From contig NZ_VYQF01000009.1 of assembly GCF_008710285.1 (NCBI RefSeq), positions 62,001 through 126,000 on the forward strand: DNA of 64,000 bases. The letters are read 5' to 3'. The notes under the pieces were generated by a model that was not told where the DNA came from, searched no databases, and saw only the letters and a list, made by a program, of their open reading frames with translations. Positions 47,867 through 64,000 of the stretch are shown here, piece by piece. A program made the position numbers and the translations under genes. The stretch's first letter is position 1. Each line of letters begins with the position of its first letter. The stretch comes from Ginsengibacter hankyongi. GTDB lineage: Bacteria; Bacteroidota; Bacteroidia; Chitinophagales; Chitinophagaceae.

Positions 47867-48598
47867 AAACATCTGTTTTTTTAAGTTATTGGTAAGTTTA
47901 TATATCAATAATAGTAATATTAATTTATATTATCTGCCTTTGGATAAAATCTGGTAAATACTGGAAAAAATTGGTTTATTTTTTCACTTTAGTCAACTCC
48001 TAATTTATAAGAAAGTCATGTTTAAAGCCGATAATGTGAGGCGTGCGTCTATACTATTCCGCTATCTCTAATTTATTGCCATGCTACATACAAACTCGTA
48101 CCGATGGCTTTATTGCATTTAATAATATCGGGCTTCTTATGACCAGTCCTTTGCATTTCATTAAAAGAATGCGAATAACCATTTCAGGCGCAGTATTAAC
48201 AATACTTATCACAATCTTCGCCGCCACCTAAAGGAACAAAGTCTGCTTTGTTAACAACATTTGAATCATCTCAAACCTTCAACAAAAAAACCCTGCTGCA
48301 AACATCAGGGTTAAATGACGGCATATACTGACTATATACAAATTCAGCAGGTCTTTAATAAATTTATGGCAGGTTGCCAGTCCGCTTATTTTGGCCGTGT
48401 CCATCACGGAAGCCCGCGTAATGTTTATGGGATTACAAAAGCGGTTTAATTATACAACTGAAAAAGCGCCATATACAAACTAATAAGGATCGGATCGATC
48501 CTGTTGTCATCTTTGATCGCTTCGTAAAGGCGGTGGTAATGGAGGTAATGGAAATAGAAGGGCTTTATAGTGGAGGGCCTAAGCAATTAAAAAAAGTA
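47867..48598. other. Region upstream of the susC-like gene, no gene assigned
   Basis: About 730 bases before the transporter start, presumably holding the promoter of the glycan locus. No regulator gene is here. A minus-strand terminator lies at 48284-48311. On the plus strand a start-less frame ends at 48603 (…IEGLYSGGPKQLKKVL); I cannot identify it. A short GATC-rich inverted repeat (GGATCGATCC) near 48490 has no known meaning. Confidence 0.45.
48284..48311 (-). terminator. Intrinsic terminator, minus strand
   Basis: On the minus strand ACCCTG, a 10-base loop and CAGGGT are followed by seven T's. It would end transcription coming from the HEPN remnant side (48599 and above) before the susC promoter region. 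The stem is short (6 bp) but the T-run is good. Confidence 0.55.
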
Positions 48599-48979
48599 TT
48601 ATAACCTGTCCGACAGTCCTTTCAATTCCTCCACCCTTTTCTTTAACACTTCCAGGTCCTGCATGCCGATAGAATAATCAATATCATAACGCCTACCTGT
48701 ATACGCTTTTTGCAAAAGCCGGAATAAACGTTCGTTCTTTTCATTGTTCCCGGGAAAAATATCAGGAAGGCGGTAATATACCATGGAGCAATAACGCAAT
48801 AAATTACCAATACTGTGCGTGTTCAGGTACATGCCCGTGGTAATAAGAAACATGGTATGCAAAGCCTGCTCGCCAGCCCGGTGCAACATAAAGCCCGCCA
48901 TATTTCTTTGTTTTCTTAACAGGTACAAATCAGCAGAGGCTAAAAATTCTGCTATTTTATTTGTGCCTTCTGTAAGCAA
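48599..48979 (-). pseudogene. HEPN-domain protein, probably N-terminally truncated
   Basis: The 126-residue product is a HEPN domain: NMAGFMLHRAGEQALHTMFLITTG and NTHSIGNLLRYC, then ERLFRLLQKAYTGRRYDIDYSI, matching the helices seen in C-terminal HEPN domains of nucleotidyltransferase-HEPN proteins of Bacteroidota (about 300 residues). The only available start is TTG at 48979. The frame stays open for another 30 bases upstream (LPQVSLKRNKE) until a stop, with no ATG, so an upstream nucleotidyltransferase part appears lost. The usual HEPN RNase motif R-x4-6-H is not intact near RRYDIDY. It abuts head-to-head with the coiled-coil tail gene at 49028. It could still be a small functional protein, but I favour a remnant. 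Confidence 0.6.
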
Positions 48980-49027
48980 CTCTTTATTTCGTTTTAAAGA
49001 TACCTGCGGAAGCTACTAAGAATTTTG

Positions 49028-49228
49028 ATGAACAGTTCTGCAATAAACGTTATATCCAGTACTTTTCATGATAATGCATCTGTTTCTAATACTAATTGTA
49101 CTTTAAACATAAACCTGCTTGATAAATACATTGAGCGGGTAGGAGAAAACAAAAAGCTTTACCAGGTTTTATTGAAAGAGAAGGATGAGAAGATTGCTTT
49201 GCTGGAAAAGACGATGGGAAAAAAATAG
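49028..49228 (+). CDS. Small coiled-coil protein or tail of a lost XRE regulator
   Basis: A 66-residue product with an ATG at 49028 and a TTG codon just before it. The last 25 residues (ENKKLYQVLLKEKDEKIALL) form an amphipathic helix like the coiled-coil tails that follow HTH_XRE domains in many Bacteroidota regulators. The first 40 residues are Asn/Ser-rich linker, also typical of such regulators. No helix-turn-helix is present. The frame reads back to about 48998 without an earlier ATG. It looks like the C-terminal half of a regulator whose DNA-binding domain has been deleted. A real small protein is possible. Confidence 0.4.
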   Translation: MNSSAINVISSTFHDNASVSNTNCTLNINLLDKYIERVGENKKLYQVLLKEKDEKIALLEKTMGKK

Positions 49229-49425
49229 CGGCCGCCACCTAACGAACGTGATTGCTAACTCTTTGGGGGTTTATCTTTGTTGAACGTGGATGTAATTCAT
49301 TGAGATAATTTTTTCCATGCAGATATTTCGGTTGCACCTACGCTCTACTCCAAAATAGTTCGAATACCCTTCACAGTAATGAATCATTTTAATTTTTTGT
49401 AATTTAAGTTGGCAGAATAAAATCC

Positions 49426-50072
49426 TCACACTTCCAGCCGTCCCGTATACACGCTGTTGGAAGCGATCTGCCCGTCTGCACTAACAAAACCTATCCATGT
49501 TTCTGCAACGGCACCTTTATTCTCACCAGGTATTGTAAGAGTAGCCGTACCGGCTGCCCTTTCTGCAGCATCCAGCGACCATGCCAGTTGTGTTTGCTTC
49601 TCCGGGAACCATGCTACCAATACAGTCTTGTCATTGGTTTTGGCGGTACCATCAGTTGAGTTATCTGTCCAGCAAAGACAAAGTTACCGCCAGCATCTAA
49701 AGTTACCGCCGCATTTTCAGCAACGGGCAGTTCGCCTTTGGAGATAAGAAACTTATCGTATAGTATTTCGTAATGAGGATACCGGCCTGCTAAGGCACTG
49801 TTCATTAAAACCTTCATGGCCCGATTGTAACCAGAGCCGCCGTGGTTAGGATCAGGAAACGTTTTGCGAAAGATGCCCGTTCCGGAAAACGCGTTGATGA
49901 ACGCATTGCAAACTTTCACTTTTTCACGCTGGGCCACCCGTGCCGGGGTAGGCTTGTCCGTTACTGTGCTGGTGGCACTGCGCATAAGGTCACGGCCATT
50001 TCTTCTAAAGCCGGATACGGGGCCTACTCTTCCGGTAAAGCCGCCCAATATTCCTTGTCTTATTTCTGCCAT
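49426..50072 (-). pseudogene. DUF6266-family protein gene with a frameshift
   Basis: The first frame, from 50072, begins MAEIRQGILGGFTGRVGPVS and continues to GGNFVFAG, the standard opening of DUF6266 proteins common in Chitinophagaceae and relatives. Around 49671 the frame breaks; the correct continuation, in another frame, reads WTDNSTDGTAKTNDKTVLVA and runs to a natural C-terminus near 49426 (SNSVYTGRLEV). A single missing base in TTTGCTGGACAG explains this. With the base restored the protein would be about 215 residues, the usual family size. The function of DUF6266 is unknown. Sequencing error cannot be excluded. Confidence 0.75.
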
Positions 50073-54712: not shown

Positions 54713-56263
54713 GTGGAGCCAATAAACGAAACGGATACTGAAATTCAACCGGCGATTGCGGAGCCTATGCGCCTAACTTATTGGCTGACCCGTTTTATGA
54801 TTCTGCGTTTACTGGGTGTTATTTATGCTATTGCATTTCTTGTTGCTATTAACCAGTTGCTTCCGCTCATTGGCTCAAATGGCCTTCTACCGGTGGGCAT
54901 TTATTTTAAACAGGTCCGTGAAGCGCTCGGATCGACAAGTGCAGGATTTATCAGGCTTCCATCACTATTTTGGTTTTTCCAATCAGATACCGCACTGTTA
55001 ACAGTAGCGTGGACAGGGTTTATTCTTTCCTTAATTGTAACCGCTGGCTTTGCTAATGCGCCTATACTTACTGTATTGTGGTTGCTGGACATGTCGATAG
55101 TTCATGCTGGCCAGGAATGGTATGGATACGGGTGGGAAATTCAATTACTCGAGACCGGGTTTCTAGCTATATTTCTTTGCCCGCTTATTGACATGCGACC
55201 ATTTCCAGGTCGTGCACCGCCATTGCCAATTATTGTTTTGTTTCGCTGGCTTATCTTCCGCATCATGCTGGGCGCAGGTCTTATTAAGTTACGCGGTGAT
55301 AAAATCTGGCGCAACGGCACGGCACTTTATTATCATTTTGAAACGCAACCATTGCCCGGACCTTTTAGCCGTTGGTTCAATTTTTTACCACGGGCTGTTT
55401 TGAAAATTGGTGTGTGGTTCAACTTTCTAGCTGAGTTGGCAGCTCCGTTATTTGTCTTTTGGCCAAGACTTGCACGTCATATTGCTGCATCGGTGATAAT
55501 ACTTTTCCAACTCATCCTTATCATTAGCGGCAACCTTTCCTTTTTCAATTGGCTTACCATCCTTCCGGCATTGGCTGGTTTTGATGATGGATTCTGGTCA
55601 AAGGTTCTTCCACAAAAGCTTGTTCGTAAAGCAGAAACTGCTGCTGCAAACGAACAGCCATCCCGACCTATGTTTATTACCGCATGGGCTGTAACAATAG
55701 TGATTGGGCTGCTTAGCATCCAGCCTGCCTTCAATATCTTATCTCCCCGTCAGATCATGAACGGCTCTTTTGATCCTTTCGAACTTGTGAATACTTATGG
55801 TGCCTTCGGAACGGTTGGACAGGAACGTTTAAATGTTGTGTTCGAAGGAACGAGTAACGATACCACAAATAATAATGCACAATGGAAACCGTATCTATAC
55901 AAAGCACTGCCCGTTATGCCCGACAAACGACCTCCGCAAATAGCTCCTTACCAACTTCATTTGGATTGGCAAATGTGGTTTGCCGCAATGGATACTCCTG
56001 ATGATTATCCATGGACGCTGAATCTTGTTTGGAAATTGCTGCATAACGATAGAGGCACTTTGAGTTTATTTGCAAACAATCCCTTCCCGGAAAAGCCTCC
56101 TAAATATATTCGGGCGGTTTTGTATCGCTATTCGTTTGCAGCACCGGGAAACCCGGATGGACTTTGGTGGATCCGTGAGCGGCTCGGCGAATGGATCCCG
56201 GCAATGTCGGTCAATGATGTGCTTCTTAAAGATTACCTGCAACGTAATGAATGGCTCCCGTAA
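54713..56263 (+). CDS. Lipase-maturation-factor (LMF1)-like membrane protein
   Basis: Membrane protein of 516 residues starting with GTG at 54713; no ATG in frame gives a better start. It has about seven hydrophobic segments and carries the LMF landmarks: LTYWLTRFMILRLLGVIYAI, GWEIQLLETGFLAIFLCPL, FRWLIFRIMLGAGLIKLRGD, then WRNGTALYYHFETQPLPGPF and SRWFNFLPR. The C-terminal soluble part contains the LMF-typical WQMWFAAMD and PPKYIRAVLYRYSFA. In animals LMF1 helps fold lipases in the ER; in bacteria the role is unproven, perhaps in assembly of exported proteins. Length is normal. The gene is followed by a strong terminator. Confidence 0.9.
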   Translation: MEPINETDTEIQPAIAEPMRLTYWLTRFMILRLLGVIYAIAFLVAINQLLPLIGSNGLLPVGIYFKQVREALGSTSAGFIRLPSLFWFFQSDTALLTVAWTGFILSLIVTAGFANAPILTVLWLLDMSIVHAGQEWYGYGWEIQLLETGFLAIFLCPLIDMRPFPGRAPPLPIIVLFRWLIFRIMLGAGLIKLRGDKIWRNGTALYYHFETQPLPGPFSRWFNFLPRAVLKIGVWFNFLAELAAPLFVFWPRLARHIAASVIILFQLILIISGNLSFFNWLTILPALAGFDDGFWSKVLPQKLVRKAETAAANEQPSRPMFITAWAVTIVIGLLSIQPAFNILSPRQIMNGSFDPFELVNTYGAFGTVGQERLNVVFEGTSNDTTNNNAQWKPYLYKALPVMPDKRPPQIAPYQLHLDWQMWFAAMDTPDDYPWTLNLVWKLLHNDRGTLSLFANNPFPEKPPKYIRAVLYRYSFAAPGNPDGLWWIRERLGEWIPAMSVNDVLLKDYLQRNEWLP

Positions 56264-56348
56264 AACACCTCGCAAATGGCCGAACTCATAAATTACTCAC
56301 GATTTATAAGCGCTTAAATGAACATTGTGACAGTCTTAAAAACCAAAA

Positions 56349-56375
56349 AGCCCGCAAACACTGAGTTTGCGGGCT
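56349..56375. terminator. Strong bidirectional intrinsic terminator
   Basis: AGCCCGCAAAC, loop ACTGA, GTTTGCGGGCT form an 11-bp perfect stem with A/T runs on both sides. It serves the lipase-maturation-factor-like gene on the plus strand and would also end a minus-strand transcript from the tmRNA-like fragment just to its right. Confidence 0.9.
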
Positions 56376-56402
56376 TTTGATTTCTTTTGAATTGTAAAAA
56401 AG

Positions 56403-56430
56403 TGGAGCTGCAGGGAGTCGAACCCTACTG
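56403..56430 (-). other. Isolated tmRNA/tRNA-like 3' end, attachment-site candidate
   Basis: On the minus strand the sequence reads as a T-arm (AGGG-TTCGACT-CCCT) followed by an acceptor strand GCAGCTCC and A. This is how many tmRNA (ssrA) genes end. The rest of the molecule is absent: to the right the sequence becomes AT-rich, and no GGGGCTG start or tag frame is seen within 400 bases. A terminator lies 27 bases downstream, as expected for the native 3' flank. Displaced 3' ends of this kind are left at the far side of elements that integrate into ssrA or tRNA genes. A tRNA origin is possible but the acceptor CAGCTCC favours ssrA. Confidence 0.6.
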
Positions 56431-57203
56431 ATAATTAAATAATTTACAGTGTTTTACGAAATTTCAAAAAGCAAACTCATGAATTACGCAAGAATATTAT
56501 TTTGTCAAAGAATCACTTGAGGGTTTTGTCTCTTCAAAGATAAAAACTTTCATAATATGCCCATATTTTTATTCCACTTATCAACTGAATAACTTACTAG
56601 GAAATTTGAAAAAGAATTATTATACCTGAGGATAATTTCTTTATCAATAAAAAAATCTTTCTTTCGGTGAAAGACATGTAGCATCGGCAATGGAATCCTG
56701 CATTCTCCTGCACTCACAATTCAGTGCATAACTGTTTGCGAAAAACCCGGACGGTATCAAAAGGCCAACTGTAAAATTTATAACGTGAAAGCATAAACGC
56801 ATCTTATCTTTTCCGGCTTACCGGATTCTCCACATCTATTGAGTTTTGTTGCAAACACCTGTTCAAGAATGTTGCCACTACATGCCCTGTTTGAAAAGAA
56901 AATAAAACGGCTACAGATTGCTACAGTTTTCTAAAACAAATGGGTCAAACGCGAAAGCGAAGTTAGCGGGCGTATTATCAAGGATAAATCAGGTAGCCAA
57001 AAGCTTCCGGCATAAACACAAATTCTGCGCTGCACCTGTCACACTGAGCCCCGCTGAATTGCCTTCCTTTATTCCGTTTCCTTTTGCCCGTTTACGCCCG
57101 CTTTAACACTTAGCTTTCTTTTTTCCCATTTTTTCTTTTAAAAAACAGTTTTTTTCGGAACAGATGGGAGAAACATTATTTAATCATTTTAAAATTTACA
57201 ATT
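56431..57203. other. AT-rich non-coding region inside the presumed element edge
   Basis: This 773-base stretch separates the tmRNA-like end from the SSB fragment. It has no gene I can identify; a short plus-strand frame at 56918-57106 does not resemble a known protein. T- and A-runs near 57115-57160 could belong to the promoter of the former SSB gene. No integrase or excisionase is visible. Confidence 0.45.
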
Positions 57204-57284
57204 ATGGAACTCGTAGGAAGAATCACGAAAGACGCGGTTGTCAGGCAACTGAAAGATGACAAAGCAGCGGCAGCGATTATGTAA
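57204..57284 (+). pseudogene. Single-stranded-DNA-binding protein (SSB), N-terminal fragment
   Basis: The 26-residue product MELVGRITKDAVVRQLKDDK (then AAAAIM) matches the first strand of the OB-fold SSBs carried by Bacteroidota plasmids and conjugative elements. The frame stops at 57282-57284, so the fold cannot form. The stop region overlaps, in another frame, the start of the DUF932 fragment. A deletion fused the two genes out of frame. Confidence 0.7.
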
Positions 57285-57892
57285 TTGAAAAATACCTTTT
57301 TCTTTCCACTTCTCATGATGGCTTTGGAAGCATCACTGCTGCGTTTATCCCTATCCGTATAATATGCAATAATACTTTGAATGCCGCTCTTCGTAATCGT
57401 TCCAATAGTATTAAAATACGTCATACTCAAAACGCAAAAGAACACCTGGAGGAGGCGCACAAAGTAATGGGAATTGTTAACCGGCTTTCCAATGAGCTCG
57501 GAGCCATCTTGAACAGGTGGTCGAAGGTTCGCATTACTGATGAAAAATTGAAACAGTTAATTCAACTGGCCATGGTTCCCAATAAGGAAGTTTTAACCAA
57601 TATTAAGTCCGGCAACCTGGATGAATTATCCACCGCATTTAAAAATGTATTTGACAACGTTTACGGGTATACGCAGTCTGCGCCATCCCAACAAACGGCA
57701 ACGGCAAAGGGAACGGTATTCGGTGCATACAATGCCTTAACTGGTTACTTTCAAAATGTACGTATCTACAAGAATGAGAAAGCCAAATTAAAATCTTTAT
57801 TGTTTGGCGGCACCGGTCAGTTACGGACACAAAAAGCATTTCAATTATGTGAAGATTTTGCAATGAAGGGGGATTCCATTTTTTTAAATTAG
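57272..57892 (+). pseudogene. DUF932 phage/plasmid-type protein, C-terminal fragment
   Basis: The frame, open from about 57272, reads DYVIEKYLFLSTSHDGFGSI and continues with TAAFIPIRIICNNTLNAALR, then KGTVFGAYNALTGYFQNVR and LFGGTGQLRTQKAFQLCEDF. This is the C-terminal two-thirds of the DUF932 (phage/plasmid-like TIGR03299) family, which is normally 300-350 residues. No proper start is available; a TTG at 57377 would lie inside the domain. The N-terminal part, with the typical WHGLG segment, is missing. A terminator follows nine bases after the stop, so the end is natural. It marks former mobile DNA. Confidence 0.8.
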
Positions 57893-58519: not shown

Positions 58520-59185
58520 TTATGTTTTATCGTACTGTTTTGTCATCGCGATAATTTTTTTTACAAGAAACTCAATTCCTGTATAATCTTTCTTTTCTAA
58601 TAATTGTTTACTGATCAGTTTACTTCCCAGGCCTACCGCACACACCCCAGCCTTAAACCATCCCCCAATATTTTCGCTATTAATATCTACCCCTCCGGTA
58701 GGGATAAATAATAAATCAGGAAACAAGACTTTTATTGCGTTCATAAATTCAGCACCCAGGAGGTTTCCAGGGAAAAGCTTAATCATTCTTGCACCTAAAT
58801 TTTCTGCACGGATAATTTCTGATGGAGTCATACATCCCGGTATCCAAAGCAGGTTATTTTTATCGGCTAAATAAGCAACTTCTTCTATCAAACCGGGGCA
58901 AATAATAAAATCTGCTCCTGCATCAATAAAGGTTTTAGCAGCCACTTCATTTTTTATAGTGCCTATTCCCAGGTACATACCAGGTAGCTCGGAAGTACAC
59001 ATTTCACGCATCTGTTGAAAGTTCGCCAAGGCTGCTTTACCTCGGTTTGTATACTCAACCGCTCTTATTCCTGCTTTGTATAAGGTTTTTAATACCTGCA
59101 GGCTTACTTCGGTATCTTCGAAAAAATAGAGAGGTAAGACTCGCTGTTCCGGAATCAGTTTTAGTAATTCATGTTTTTTATCCAT
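58520..59185 (-). CDS. eda: KDPG/KHG aldolase
   Basis: Cytoplasmic class I aldolase of 221 residues that splits 2-keto-3-deoxy-6-phosphogluconate into pyruvate and glyceraldehyde-3-phosphate. The Schiff-base lysine is K136 in ARMIKLFPGNLLGAEF. The catalytic E44 lies in RAVEYTNRG, where the usual VEVTLRT is altered to VEYTNRG, with R48 retained. The WIPGCMTPSEI and PTGGVDINSENIGGW phosphate/substrate loops are normal. It is the last gene of the minus-strand operon, 90 bases after the kinase that makes its substrate. Some relatives accept other 2-keto-3-deoxy acids. Confidence 0.93.
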   Translation of the reverse strand: MDKKHELLKLIPEQRVLPLYFFEDTEVSLQVLKTLYKAGIRAVEYTNRGKAALANFQQMREMCTSELPGMYLGIGTIKNEVAAKTFIDAGADFIICPGLIEEVAYLADKNNLLWIPGCMTPSEIIRAENLGARMIKLFPGNLLGAEFMNAIKVLFPDLLFIPTGGVDINSENIGGWFKAGVCAVGLGSKLISKQLLEKKDYTGIEFLVKKIIAMTKQYDKT

Positions 59186-59275
59186 ACGCTTATAGTTCTG
59201 AACATAAAGCTCGCCCGGTCATTTTTTATCGTTACCCGCGTCGCTTTGATTTTTTAAGTAAACAGTTCGCTTTTT

Positions 59276-60301
59276 TTAACGCTGCACTCTTCCGCTTGCA
59301 TCTCCTTTCATCAAACCTGTTACATCACTTAATGTAGCATGGTTTAAATCTCCGGGGATAGTATGTTTCAATGCAGAAGCAGCAACACCGAATTCGGCAG
59401 CATCTTTCATTGCCATTTCAGTAACCAATCCATAGATAAAGCCGCTTGCAAAAGAATCACCGCTTCCAACGCGGTCTACAATTCTTACTTCGTATTGTTT
59501 GGTATGATAAAATTCATTGCCATCATATACTAATGCGCTCCATCCGTTATCTGAGGCACTATGGCTTTCTCTTAATGTAGAAGCAATGTATTTGAAGTTG
59601 AATTTTTCTTTCATCTGTTGAAATACATCTTTATAACCATCAAGATTTAATTCGCCTTTGGTTACGTCTGTTCCTTTGCTTTTAAATCCTAATGTTGTTT
59701 CTGCATCTTCTTCGTTGCCGATACATACATCAACATAAGCACAAAGCTTCGTCATTACTTCTTTAGCTTTTTCTTTGCTCCATAATTTTTTACGATAATT
59801 AAGATCAATACTCGTAGTAATTCCTTTAGCCTTTGCCGCTTTCAATGCTGTTTCAGTAAGTGCCGCAGCACTATCGCTTAACGCAGGTGTTATCCCGGTT
59901 GTATGAAACCATGAAGCGCCATCAAATATTTTATCAAAATCAAAGTCTTTAATTTCAGCTTCTGAAATAGCCGCATCAGCACGATCATATACCACTTGCG
60001 ATGCACGCATAGACGCACCTGTTTCCAAAAAATAAATGCCTAATCTTTTTCCACCTCTTGCAACAAATTGCGTATCTACACCATAACGGCGTAAGTGATT
60101 TATTGCAGATTGTCCTATTGGATTATCCGGCACTTTGGAAACGAAAGTTCCCTGTAATCCATAGTTACAAAGGGCTGCAGCTACGTTTGCTTCTCCGCCA
60201 CCATAGGTCACATCAAATGTATCCGCTTGCACGAATCTTTTAAAATCGGGAGTAGATAACCGAAGCATTATTTCTCCAAGTGTTACAACTTTTTTTGCCA
60301 T
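59276..60301 (-). CDS. kdgK: 2-keto-3-deoxygluconate kinase (PfkB family)
   Basis: Cytoplasmic ribokinase-fold kinase of 341 residues that makes KDPG from 2-keto-3-deoxygluconate. The N-terminal motif VTLGEIMLRLSTPDFKRFVQ and YGGGEANVAAALCNYG are typical of bacterial KdgK. The C-terminal PfkB signature is IVDRVGSGDSFASGFIYG with the base D282. An ISEAEIKDFDFDKIFDGASW-like stretch and IDLNYRKKLW also match this subgroup. The next gene downstream is the KDPG aldolase and the upstream gene is the mannonate dehydratase that makes its substrate, so the assignment is well supported by context. Confidence 0.93.
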   Translation of the reverse strand: MAKKVVTLGEIMLRLSTPDFKRFVQADTFDVTYGGGEANVAAALCNYGLQGTFVSKVPDNPIGQSAINHLRRYGVDTQFVARGGKRLGIYFLETGASMRASQVVYDRADAAISEAEIKDFDFDKIFDGASWFHTTGITPALSDSAAALTETALKAAKAKGITTSIDLNYRKKLWSKEKAKEVMTKLCAYVDVCIGNEEDAETTLGFKSKGTDVTKGELNLDGYKDVFQQMKEKFNFKYIASTLRESHSASDNGWSALVYDGNEFYHTKQYEVRIVDRVGSGDSFASGFIYGLVTEMAMKDAAEFGVAASALKHTIPGDLNHATLSDVTGLMKGDASGRVQR

Positions 60302-60394
60302 TGTTATTTTGTGATTTAACAGTAATAGTCACCTTTTTATAAGAAAAAAGTATAAACGATATCTGTTTAGTAAAGTAAAATTTGAAAAGAAATA

Positions 60395-61453
60395 TCAATC
60401 AATCATCTTAATGGCAGCATTCATAAACCCAAGCGCATACGCCATCCCTGCATACCATGGCCCTTCACAAGTCATCTGGGGAGTATGGTCGGGTATCAGT
60501 ACCCCTTTAAAATTTCGTCTTTTTAATATAGTCAGTACTCTTTTCATATCGATGTCTCCTTCATCTACAAACACTTCTTTATAAAAAGGAACCTTCCCCC
60601 GAACATTTCTGAAATGTATATAAGCTATATTGTCTGCATACTGTTCTGTAGCATCATAGACATTGCCTTCGGTCATCTCTGCTATTGAACCTAAACAGAA
60701 TTCGAGGGCATTACTCTTACTCTTAATAACATTCAATAATTTGCTGTACATCTCTGGTTGATAAACTAACCGTGGCGATTGCCGCACAACTGGCATGGGC
60801 GGATCATCGGGATGGGCGGCCAAAATAACTCCCGCCTCTTCCGCTACAGGAATAATTTCATTCAAAAAATATTCAAGTCGCTGCCATAATTCATCATGAG
60901 ATATATTCTTTATAAAGCCGTCCGCCGCGCTCTGGTCATAAGTCATATTCCACACCATTCCGTTAGGGATGGGACGTTCATCAACTCCATCCATACCTAC
61001 AGAAACAGCGCCACCTCTTGCAAATGCCCCGGACGTTCTGCTACAAACGCCGGCCAAACTAAAATTATAGCCAATCACCGGAATGCCTGCCTCTCCCACA
61101 TTTCTTATCAACTGCTTAATTCTCTCGACCTGTTTCTTTTTTAGGGGCCCATCGAGTAGCACGTCATACCAATCAGCAGGATCAAAATTTTCAATGGCCT
61201 CCCACTCCAGCCCTGCATCATTAATCTCTTTCTTTAACCGAAGCAATTCTTCTACTTCCCATAAATTTCTTGATTTGCCGGCAATTCCCCAGCCTGTCCC
61301 ATCACCGATAGGCTGATCATTAGTCTTTTTCTGGTTCCCTTTGTTAAAATAATCTACCAAATGAACCACCAAATGAGTGCAACCACACTGTTTGGCAAAA
61401 TCAAAATGTGCTTTGTTCAACATATGATTGTACAGCCCTAAACCCAACTTCAT
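60395..61453 (-). CDS. uxuA: D-mannonate dehydratase
   Basis: Cytoplasmic TIM-barrel dehydratase of 352 residues in the UxuA family, converting D-mannonate to 2-keto-3-deoxygluconate. Typical elements are IENFDPADWYDVLLDGP, VIGYNFSLAGVCSR, ILAAHPDDPPMPVVR with metal-binding His and Asp, and IAYIHFRNVRGKVPFYKEVF followed by VDEGDID. The length is slightly below the enterobacterial enzyme (about 390) but within the family. It starts 18 bases after the RraA-family gene ends and is followed by kdgK. Together the genes make a complete D-mannonate to pyruvate segment. The missing upstream steps (uronate isomerase, mannonate oxidoreductase) are not in view, except possibly the SDR at 62630. Confidence 0.9.
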   Translation of the reverse strand: MKLGLGLYNHMLNKAHFDFAKQCGCTHLVVHLVDYFNKGNQKKTNDQPIGDGTGWGIAGKSRNLWEVEELLRLKKEINDAGLEWEAIENFDPADWYDVLLDGPLKKKQVERIKQLIRNVGEAGIPVIGYNFSLAGVCSRTSGAFARGGAVSVGMDGVDERPIPNGMVWNMTYDQSAADGFIKNISHDELWQRLEYFLNEIIPVAEEAGVILAAHPDDPPMPVVRQSPRLVYQPEMYSKLLNVIKSKSNALEFCLGSIAEMTEGNVYDATEQYADNIAYIHFRNVRGKVPFYKEVFVDEGDIDMKRVLTILKRRNFKGVLIPDHTPQMTCEGPWYAGMAYALGFMNAAIKMID

Positions 61454-61471
61454 ATTTTTTTATTTTATTGC

Positions 61472-62164
61472 TTATAATATCCCATATTTAAGAAAAGCAT
61501 CCGTACTCGACATTCCATTTTCAATCTCCCGCCTCACGATCTTTTCACCCCGCGCTTTCTTCAATGCTTTTTCGAACACTTCTTTCTCATTTTGTTTGGG
61601 TATCACCAATACGCCATCTACGTCTCCAAAGATTAAATCGCCGGGCCTTATCCAAACCTCTCCAATTTCAATATCACATCTGTAGTTTACGACCTGCGTG
61701 CGAACTGCAGAGTCCTGGGCATACCTTCCCCGGCTGAAAACCGGCCAATTTTGCTCCATCACTTTTGGTGTATCTCTATAAAAACCATCAATCACGGCAC
61801 CGGAGGCGCCTCTTTTTTTTGCAGTGGCAGTCAGAATCTCCCCCCAATAAGCGCATCGCATAGTTCCACCGGCTGCAATATATACTTCCCCTAGCTGAAG
61901 TTGATCAAGCGCCTCTGTAAGCCTGCCGAATGGTTTCTTTTGCGGCCCGTAAACGTCAATCATTAAGACAGGCATTGCCCGTCCAATAATCTTATCTGTA
62001 ATTCGAAGTGGCTGTACCTGCTGTGGTAAAAACTGGTGGTAATATCCCAATTCATCAAGGATATCTCCCACTACCGACGTATATAATTCCTTCCTGAAAA
62101 GTTCAAAGAGGTCAGTGTCAGTCTCCCATTTATAATTTTCATCTTTTAAAATAACCGGTTCCAT
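61472..62164 (-). CDS. RraA-family protein (HMG-aldolase-like)
   Basis: A 230-residue protein of the RraA / 4-hydroxy-4-methyl-2-oxoglutarate aldolase fold. The signature is clear: [20 protein letters not shown] near residue 96, [14 protein letters not shown] with R130-D131 that hold metal and pyruvate, and [20 protein letters not shown] near residue 175. Members act as class II pyruvate aldolases or oxaloacetate decarboxylases; true RraA (RNase E inhibitor) is shorter (about 160), and the longer length favours an enzyme. In this operon it could cleave a 2-keto acid derived from a deoxy sugar or remove oxaloacetate. It begins 30 bases after the cupin gene. Confidence 0.88.
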
Positions 62165-62194
62165 AAGTTTTCGTTTATAATTATCATATAGTAT

Positions 62195-62626
62195 CTAAAA
62201 AGGTTGCTCATTTAATAACCTGCGTATGGCGTCATTAAGGTATTCAGCTTCATTTTTGCTAAGCTGCCTGTAAACAAAATCACCCAGGTGTGTATTACTC
62301 TTCTCAATTATAATTACCTCAGCATCTTTGTCCATCGCGATGTTGTGCCATGTGTTTACGGGAACATTATAGGTTATTCCAATTTTCATCTGTATTAGTT
62401 GAAAGTTGAATCCTTCGTTCTCCAGGACAGCTCCAATTAATACCGCAGTTCCTGTTGTCAACACAAATACCTCATCAGTCTGCATATGCATATCCATTTT
62501 TTGGATAGCATACAATCCCTGTTCAGGTATAAAATTTAATTGAGCTACCTGCCAGTTATCTTTTATTATAAAAGGATTGTAGCCAAGGCCTTCATGATAA
62601 TATGTTTCGATCAATTCGTTGCTCAT
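62195..62626 (-). CDS. Small cupin-superfamily protein
   Basis: A 143-residue protein with a single cupin barrel: GLYAIQKMDMHMQTDEVFVL, then TAVLIGAVLE and ITYNVPVNTWHNIAMDKDAE. His residues in MDMHMQTDE and TWHNIAM could bind a metal. It looks like the small cupins found in sugar-acid operons of Bacteroidota, some annotated as ureidoglycolate-lyase-like, but no reaction is certain. Its ATG lies three bases after the SDR stop, so it is translated together with that gene. It might isomerise or epimerise a keto sugar acid; that is inference. Confidence 0.75.
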   Translation of the reverse strand: MSNELIETYYHEGLGYNPFIIKDNWQVAQLNFIPEQGLYAIQKMDMHMQTDEVFVLTTGTAVLIGAVLENEGFNFQLIQMKIGITYNVPVNTWHNIAMDKDAEVIIIEKSNTHLGDFVYRQLSKNEAEYLNDAIRRLLNEQPF

Positions 62627-62629
62627 GAC

Positions 62630-63424
62630 TTATCTTTTTGGACGGGGATCGTAAGGAATGGTACTCTCTTTATAGCCGCCGTCAATGTATAACTCCGTCG
62701 CCGTTATATAAGAAGCCCTTTCGCTGGCAAGGAATGCACAAGTCCAGGCCACATCATCTACCACACCAACTTTCCCCAAAGGAATCCAGTTATTAAATTT
62801 ATCTCTGCCAAATTCATTTATTTCCTCCCGGTTCATTTCAGTCTCTATAGCCCCCGGGCATACCGCTACGACCCTGATATTGTGTTCTGCTAATTCAAGC
62901 GCCAGGCATTTCGTCATCATATTTAAAGCGGCTTTAGATGAACAATAATGCACCAATCCCTTACGTGGTACTTTGTCATGAATGGATGAAATATTAATAA
63001 TAACGCCGGTTTTCTTCTCAACCATTCTTCGGCCCGCCAACTGCGCACAATGAAATGCCCCTTTCAGGTTTACATCAAATATCTTATCCCACACTGCAAG
63101 GTCAAGATGGATCGCGTGCGCCACTGTTTCACAGCCTGCATTATTCACAAGTACGTCAAGCTGGCTAAAATTTTCATCGATAAATGAAAACATTTTTGCC
63201 ACTTCTTCCGGGTTAGAAATATCCGCCCCAAACGACAACGCTCTTACCCCGTATAGATTGTGTAAAGAAATGGCAAGGTTCTCCGCACTTTCTTTATGCG
63301 TGTGATAATTAATGACCACATTGGCGCCACAGGCAGCCATCGATGTACAGATCGCTGATCCGATTCCCTGGCTTCCGCCGGTTACTAATACAACCTTATT
63401 TTTTAGTTCGATGCTGTTATTCAT
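62630..63424 (-). CDS. Short-chain dehydrogenase/reductase (SDR)
   Basis: Cytoplasmic NAD(P)-dependent oxidoreductase of 264 residues from the Met at 63424 (an upstream Met adds five). Numbering from the longer start, the nucleotide-binding motif is TGGSQGIG at residues 20-27. NNAG lies at 99-102 and the catalytic set at S151/S152, Y165 and K169 (HYCSSK). The C-terminal TELYIDGGYKES is typical of classical SDRs of the glucose/gluconate dehydrogenase type. The residue after the first loop (INYHTHKE) suggests NADP preference. In context it may oxidise or reduce a sugar acid such as fructuronate/mannonate or a deoxy sugar. The specific substrate is not readable. Confidence 0.9.
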   Translation of the reverse strand: MNNSIELKNKVVLVTGGSQGIGSAICTSMAACGANVVINYHTHKESAENLAISLHNLYGVRALSFGADISNPEEVAKMFSFIDENFSQLDVLVNNAGCETVAHAIHLDLAVWDKIFDVNLKGAFHCAQLAGRRMVEKKTGVIINISSIHDKVPRKGLVHYCSSKAALNMMTKCLALELAEHNIRVVAVCPGAIETEMNREEINEFGRDKFNNWIPLGKVGVVDDVAWTCAFLASERASYITATELYIDGGYKESTIPYDPRPKR

Positions 63425-63468
63425 AATAAACTTTTTCATTTATGGACCCATTACGCATTTCCACGCCT

Positions 63469-64000
63469 TTATTCCTGGTCCCTGCTATTTATTTCCTGCA
63501 TTATCTCTGCAGTATGTTCGCCCAGCGACGGTGCAGGACGGTACAGCTTCTGTTCTGTTTCGCTAAACCGCACAGGAAATCCCGTCGTCCGGATTTTGCC
63601 CACCACGGGATGCTCATAGTCCAGAATCATATTGTTATGTTTAACCTGGGGATCGTCAACCATCTCTTTAAAAGTATTCACCTGCGAACACCAGACATCA
63701 TGAGGCAGCAAAATATCCAGCCAATCGTTGGTTGACTTTGTTTTAAAAACAGCTGCAAATGCAACCCGTATGTCATCCCTGTTTTCGATCACATTATTAC
63801 TTTCAAATTCAGGATGGTCATATTCCGGAACATTCAGCAAAACGGCAAGTTTCCTCACGGAGTTCATCCCGATACTTATATAATTATCCTTCGTTTCAAA
63901 TAGCCCATAGGGAGCGCCTAACCATGGATTGGGAATACCACTTTCACTTCTTTCAGGGTTAGCTCCTTTGTGAAGGAAAGCCGTTATTTCCTGTACCTGG
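63469..64000 (-). CDS. Class III CoA-transferase (CaiB/BaiF type), C-terminal part
   Basis: The frame enters from the right edge and ends at 63469, giving 176 codons plus stop. Visible motifs belong to the C-terminal half of family III CoA-transferases: IPNPWLGAPYGLFETKDNYI, WLDILLPHDVWCSQVNTFKE, NMILDYEHPVVGKIRTTGFP, VRFSETEQKLYRPAPSLGEH and TAEIMQEI. The catalytic Asp of the N-terminal half is outside the window. These enzymes move CoA between carboxylic acids, e.g. formyl-, carnitinyl- or succinyl-CoA. It is the first visible gene of the sugar-acid operon, 29 bases before the SDR, an unusual partner for UxuA/KdgK/Eda. Confidence 0.88.
   Translation of the reverse strand, partial: QVQEITAFLHKGANPERSESGIPNPWLGAPYGLFETKDNYISIGMNSVRKLAVLLNVPEYDHPEFESNNVIENRDDIRVAFAAVFKTKSTNDWLDILLPHDVWCSQVNTFKEMVDDPQVKHNNMILDYEHPVVGKIRTTGFPVRFSETEQKLYRPAPSLGEHTAEIMQEINSRDQE

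Follow-up and report, generated by a model that had tools for sequence, protein, structure and literature searches.

A displaced tmRNA gene end in Ginsengibacter hankyongi as the probable distal junction of an integrative and mobilisable element

How does a stray 3' end of the tmRNA gene (ssrA) come to lie beside a uronate-type catabolic cluster, and did the cluster arrive with the element whose edge this end seems to mark? We addressed this question in a 64,000-nt stretch of DNA (hereinafter, the window; C33:62001-126000) from the 5.5-Mb genome of Ginsengibacter hankyongi, which is assembled in 33 contigs. We read the site as the probable far attachment junction of an integrative and mobilisable element that targets the tmRNA gene, an element itself probably stacked on an older layer (Table 1).

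Table 1 Features around the displaced ssrA end (window coordinates unless a contig is named).
Feature	Position	Strand	Evidence or remark
Lipase-maturation-factor-like (LMF1-like) gene, left of the junction	54713-56263	+	
P-arm-like block of the putative older element: terminator, spacer, motif GTAATTTATGAGTT (56283-56296)	56280-56401	-	Repeat comparison
Rho-independent terminator within the presumed integrase-side (P) arm	56346-56378	-	Hairpin z -7.0; block recurs at C12 and C1
Displaced ssrA (tmRNA) 3' end, T-arm and acceptor strand; presumed crossover core	56402-56426	-	25/25 identity with C12 ssrA
Putative P'-arm side of the incoming element, nominal extent	56427-57180	-	Exact motif GTAATTCATGAGTT at 56474-56487
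SSB N-terminal fragment, 26 aa	57204-57281	+	Pfam E 0.034, 14.6 bits vs cut-off 26
DUF932 fragment without the N-terminal part	57377-57892	+	PF06067 E 1.3e-26, profile positions 93-226 of 227
DUF932 3' end and downstream segment	57755-58058	+	Direct repeat at C33:145793-146104, 312 columns, 78%
Uronate-type cluster, left part	58520-64000	-	Continues on C33 to about 145553

ARAGORN detected no tRNA or tmRNA in the 64,000-nt window, and an Rfam search of the window never reached the gathering score, the tmRNA model yielding a sub-threshold match of 15 nt (56412-56426; 10.7 bits, E 0.036). Thus, the segment is a lone ssrA end and not a gene. Its minus-strand sequence, AGGGTTCGACTCCCTGCAGCTCCAC, is identical to the 25 nt with which the intact ssrA of contig C12 ends, which confirms the lone T-arm/acceptor end of tmRNA type that had been predicted from the window. 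The likeness between the window and C12 extends 3' of ssrA through the terminator (134 of 149 columns, 90%, E 1e-52) and breaks off on the 5' side where the T-arm begins, which fits a putative recombination core. T-arm motifs are common and the Rfam match alone is weak, so that a T-arm-like match of 25 nt without any shared history deserves consideration, but the full identity over 25 nt, the long alignment that continues it and the rarity of the core leave this explanation with a vanishingly small probability, and we reject it: at up to 3 mismatches, a 21-nt core pattern occurs in only two places in the genome, the window and ssrA, and the backward control pattern has no occurrence.

The only intact ssrA that was found (C12:2192-2562, minus strand) encodes the tag GNTSYAMAA; the other, weaker tmRNA-model matches in the genome are, or overlap, tRNA-Ser genes. 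Directly adjoining it are remnants of a mobile element. In the segment C12:1585-1942 (minus strand), Pfam identifies two parts of a tyrosine integrase, an Arm-DNA-bind_5 piece and, from the C-terminal end, a Phage_integrase piece, and the middle of this broken gene is missing; beyond it come a truncated relaxase (MobA/VirD2 domain, E 1.9e-29; 262 aa vs 417 in the related locus L116) and MobC (E 8.5e-10). Hence the integrase that the original prediction expected beside ssrA is there in pieces, and the outcome it feared, an intact ssrA elsewhere without mobility genes, was not seen. The predicted rightward extension is likewise borne out by the element genes that run right of the core. As for the two mobile gene fragments predicted on that side, DUF932 is firmly identified, whereas the SSB match, being below the cut-off, is weak alone and gains support from the SSB-DUF932 order in relatives. 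The SSB, DUF932, relaxase and integrase genes are all truncated, so the element is probably immobile by itself now. Inspection by eye of the larger ORFs in C33:118-146 kb, in C8 and in C12:1-2.2 kb revealed no complete conjugation system.

Other pieces of related sequence are scattered in this genome. Another relaxase copy (L212, C30:1-2864), with 98% DNA identity over 379 bp to that on C12, is followed by a full-length-looking coupling-protein gene, and C30 starts inside the relaxase gene; this locus may belong to a more complete related element. In C3:47187-47445 (L111), a DUF932 fragment is fused directly to a piece that matches P'-side sequence of the window (56572-56618); this seems to be one more relic of the element family.

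Loci of relaxase relatives (80 kept of 86, many of them short or cut) suggest that the mobile genes of the window and those of C12 belong together: L116 displays the order SSB, DUF932, ParB, RadC, MobC, MobA, coupling protein. Across the 80 loci, MobC is found upstream of the relaxase in 71 and the coupling protein downstream in 58; RadC occurs in 14, always upstream, SSB in 13 (10 upstream) and DUF932 in 10 (7 upstream). A minus-strand integrase lies downstream in five loci. In three of these (L121, L148 and L192), a tRNA gene, also on the minus strand, follows just past the integrase, the geometry that we propose here for ssrA; L127 is without a tRNA, and L125 has one at the other end. Within the stretches examined, a tRNA gene is present in 18 of the 80 loci and a tmRNA gene in none, and L121, L148 and L192 contain no displaced tRNA end at up to 4 mismatches. 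An exact-repeat scan of the 80 loci produced one clear case, the tRNA-Arg of L125 with about 10.4 kb between the copies, which we rejected as an instance of the same layout given the integrase at the opposite end; two other candidate displaced ends, in L152 and L163, are only neighbouring tRNA-Met genes.

The designations P arm, P' arm and attL/attR follow the common usage for tyrosine recombinases, and the arm roles assigned here are putative. We propose that a recombinase of the Arm-DNA-bind_5/Phage_int_SAM_5 type recombined a core in the T-arm/acceptor end of ssrA, which would leave ssrA intact beside the integrase and displace its old 3' end to the far edge, at 56402-56426. The integrase-side arm would bring its own terminator, with which the invaded ssrA could still end its transcript. 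In the window, the displaced core is followed by the same type of arm without an integrase, so that integration most likely took place atop an older, decayed copy, that is, by accretion. Rightward from the window, the order would be P' arm, SSB, DUF932, the uronate cluster, a DUF932 remnant, radC and a joining segment, denoted R; then, possibly, the 55-kb C8 cluster with its own DUF932 remnant, radC and R; and finally mobC, the mobA remnant, the integrase pieces, the P arm and ssrA.

This probable path from C33 to C12 was derived from a comparison of the 36 ends of the 18 readable contigs (the other 15 contigs, shorter than 2 kb, read as N). The right ends of C33 and C8 share an identical terminal 77-mer, located inside a radC-like gene, and another identical terminal 77-mer, immediately before mobC, is common to the left ends of C12 and C8. 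Pfam gives no match for the C33 end piece alone, which is identical to the L116 RadC at 25 of 45 positions; by analogy, L116 suggests that radC and spacer sequence together make up about 0.6 kb between these points. Both simple paths, C33-R-C12 (~31 kb) and C33-R-C8-R-C12 (~87 kb), reach ssrA. The shorter one would leave C8 as a separate circle; judged by eye, SusC/SusD-like genes and sugar-acid genes make up most of the 55 kb of C8, and no gene for replication was noticed there; for these reasons we favour the longer path. C23 ends at the same radC base and differs from C33 and C8 at positions 15 and 51 from the end; a third path via C23 is possible. DUF932 remnants followed by radC-like sequence are located at C33:145793-145938, C8:54799-54950 and C23:532828-532954, those of C33 and C23 starting at the same DUF932 position.

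The original prediction had placed the intact ssrA to the right of the window and in the same orientation; the orientation is the same, and the rightward place is supported, short of proof, by the contig-end identities. If C33 had no link to C12, the window copy could be an orphan attachment site left by a rearrangement. The reconstructed nature of R and the end of C23 at the same radC base would fit such separate events, which nevertheless appear improbable to us because the sole two copies of the core share an arm motif, placed in complementary arms, and because the shared radC and pre-mobC ends join C33 and C12.

The arm motif in question is the exact 14-mer GTAATTCATGAGTT, which is present in the C12 arm, in a comparable arm on C1 and, in the window, at a distance of 47 nt on the right side of the core; among 20,000 first-order Markov simulations of the 754-bp P'-side stretch, none contained this exact 14-mer. 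The tract shared by C12 and the window runs past the terminator into the motif CGTGAGTAATTYATGAGTTCGG. At a tRNA-Lys gene on C1, a small element is flanked on both sides by its own motif, TCGGTTACCA, the inner copy of which is 49 nt from a set point in the core of a tRNA-Lys end that is both degraded and displaced; the corresponding distance in the window is 50 nt. After this displaced end comes the same terminator-plus-motif block as in the window, and then another integrase remnant. The C1 site looks like a second, accretion-like case. The surrounding locus (L114, C1:126000-145000) seemingly comprises tRNA-Lys with two stacked element remnants, the outer one belonging to the arm family of the ssrA element, and its neighbours, named by eye, encode glycerate-kinase-like and permease-like proteins.

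What, then, lies to the left of the core? The original prediction took the terminator there for a native one. The terminator itself stands, with a strong hairpin and a U-tract (shuffle z-score for the hairpin, -7.0), but its native status finds no support, given that the block containing it also lies beside the C12 and C1 integrases. The block 56280-56401 belongs to the 149-column tract, at 90% with C12:2068-2216, and the same tract aligns with C1:133648-133792 over 146 columns at 83%. On C12, the block sits between the intact ssrA and the integrase, and on C1, between the degraded tRNA-Lys end and another integrase; in the window, the integrase expected next to it is absent. A search of 14 genus-mate ssrA loci did not find the block part 56280-56346, and the top match was 14 nt long and at chance level (E 0.94; one of these genomes, G013, contributes only 133 nt downstream of ssrA). 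The sharing of this block, and the absence of its part 56280-56346 from the genus-mate loci, point to accretion: most likely, an older element, now decayed and without its integrase, left one of its arms as the left flank, and 56402-56426 is most likely where two element layers meet, not a clean boundary between element and host.

Accretion is weakened by the failure to find a third ssrA end, which would mark the far edge of the older layer (the genome holds the two core copies only, at up to 3 mismatches), and by the existence of native hairpins. These observations bear on a simpler scenario, a single insertion in which the left terminator and flank are the native sequence downstream of ssrA and the element arm was captured long ago from an ssrA flank, whence the likeness. 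Two ssrA ends are exactly what this scenario predicts; single-layer cases are seen in the genus-mates G010 and G004; and in G012 and G003, with no integrase seen beside it, ssrA is followed by a terminator similar to that of the window (80% over 90 nt and 75% over 97 nt, respectively, core included). A capture of this kind is nonetheless rather unlikely, since the block runs past the terminator into a motif that is also found across the core, the same block follows the degraded tRNA-Lys end ahead of another integrase, and the part past the terminator is missing from the genus-mate ssrA loci. The hairpin as such does not discriminate element from host origin: it occurs in 8 of 9 other stretches on the element side (the exception being G010, where it was missed), in neither of two host-side stretches and in 2 of 300 random window stretches, but equally in 7 of the 12 genus-mate ssrA loci that have no integrase next to them. 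When the arm region was searched against the class, 28 of the 39 rows from other genomes fell within query positions 325-407, the terminator part.

Two candidate routes to the host flank were abandoned. The LMF1-like gene was rejected as the ancestral neighbour of ssrA: in the three genus-mates that have this gene, another gene comes next (two genomes) or the contig ends (one), and the rest of window 53-59 kb showed no other match to the genus-mate LMF1 loci. The ABC transporter next to ssrA in G003 was uninformative, its position here, C12:363694, being far from both edges.

The genus sample (20 genomes including this one and 19 genus-mates; 11 of the 20 at least 90% complete) contains comparable insertions. 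The core pattern was detected at up to 2 mismatches in 15 of the 20 genomes, and three of them (this genome, G004 and G010) have a second copy, a displaced ssrA end. Three genomes have an integrase immediately next to ssrA, namely this one, G010 and G011; in the latter two, it is the start of an integrase gene that lies directly downstream of ssrA. The displaced end of G010 shows, by eye, the arm motif that accompanies the integrase at its ssrA, and a different gene comes after this end. In G004, the element side encodes an integrase with all three domains, cut at the edge of the stretch examined, and on the other side lie the genes found immediately after the intact ssrA of G006 and G017; the latter two genomes thus look like the empty site of G004. 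No empty site closely matching this genome was found. Thus, ssrA appears to be a repeatedly used insertion point in this genus, and a terminator next to a displaced tRNA or tmRNA end may belong to the element and is, alone, no proof of a host edge.

We turn to the cargo. According to Pfam, the part of the cluster in the window encodes a KDPG aldolase, a PfkB kinase, a UxuA-like dehydratase, an RraA-like protein, a small protein without a match, an SDR and a CoA-transferase III that extends past the window edge; the proteins tested from the rest, on C33, comprise an AraC regulator, SusC, SusD, a sugar transporter and a solute-binding protein, together with four enzymes or enzyme-like proteins: an M24 peptidase, an enoyl-CoA hydratase and one family 38 glycosidase. 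Conservation was surveyed for the UxuA-like gene only. Some match exists in 12 of the 20 genus genomes, including this one, and the best elsewhere, at 39%, is partial. At E <= 1e-60, the gene is present in 4 of 395 genomes of the class, namely this one and three others (68, 55 and 54%), and in none of the eight other same-family genomes listed; the closest class match (68%) comes from another family and also has the SDR nearby. Conservation of the operon in place across the family, the outcome that would have refuted the original prediction, was thus not seen for this gene. The operon is likely cargo of the element, and its predicted arrival as cargo agrees with the lack of conservation of the UxuA-like gene in the genus. 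Arrival in one step finds no support: the cluster, between the two ssrA ends, is bracketed by the two direct copies of the DUF932 3' end, which suggest a layered assembly. GC content is not decisive as to origin (uronate cluster, 40.3%; C8, 42.1%; DNA beside ssrA, 35.3%; left window, 39.5%).

The uronate cluster and the 55-kb C8 cluster each end with a DUF932 remnant and radC. It is conceivable, albeit doubtful, that the DUF932-radC segments act as a homology dock, whereby catabolic blocks join and leave the ssrA island as circles by homologous recombination. If so, ssrA would be a site at which polysaccharide and sugar-acid loci are stacked like cassettes.

The arrangement appears to be of a known kind, a mobile element at the end of the tmRNA gene with a catabolic block inside, and ties this gene block to a specific mobile-element site. 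In Dehalococcoides, ssrA islands with displaced 20-bp ends and tandem arrays have been documented (PMC3146451). The shared traits are the single-copy ssrA 3' end as the target, the displaced direct repeat at the far edge, tandem islands and catabolic cargo; in contrast, those islands use the serine recombinase DsiB, whereas tyrosine-recombinase domain pieces and other cargo are found here (PMC3146451). Accretion of integrative and mobilisable elements (IMEs) onto decayed elements has been reviewed (PMC5704250), and the likeness to such IME/CIME accretion lies in the IME in the att site of a decayed element and in the integrase and relaxase genes; the present case, known from sequence alone, differs in that the younger layer is decayed too and the older far end was not found. 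Mobile elements of gut Bacteroidetes carry SusC/SusD loci (PMC6907783), that is, polysaccharide-utilisation genes as cargo of integrative elements, as here; the ssrA target and the repeated DUF932-radC segments between cargo blocks may set the present locus apart. Judging by titles and abstract starts, neither an ssrA island in Bacteroidota nor a DUF932-radC mobile module is reported among the literature matches listed.

Farther to the left, window 1-48000 is occupied by a large SusC/SusD and sulfatase cluster that may also be mobile. Just past it, window 48231-48528 is a 300-bp piece (82%) of a 1.18-kb segment that is common to C1:128177-129341 and C8:53622-54796 (88%) and that ends, in C1, within an HTH_17 gene. 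Between this left catabolic cluster and the ssrA end, window 48599-50072 contains an ORF with a HEPN domain and a DUF6266 ORF.
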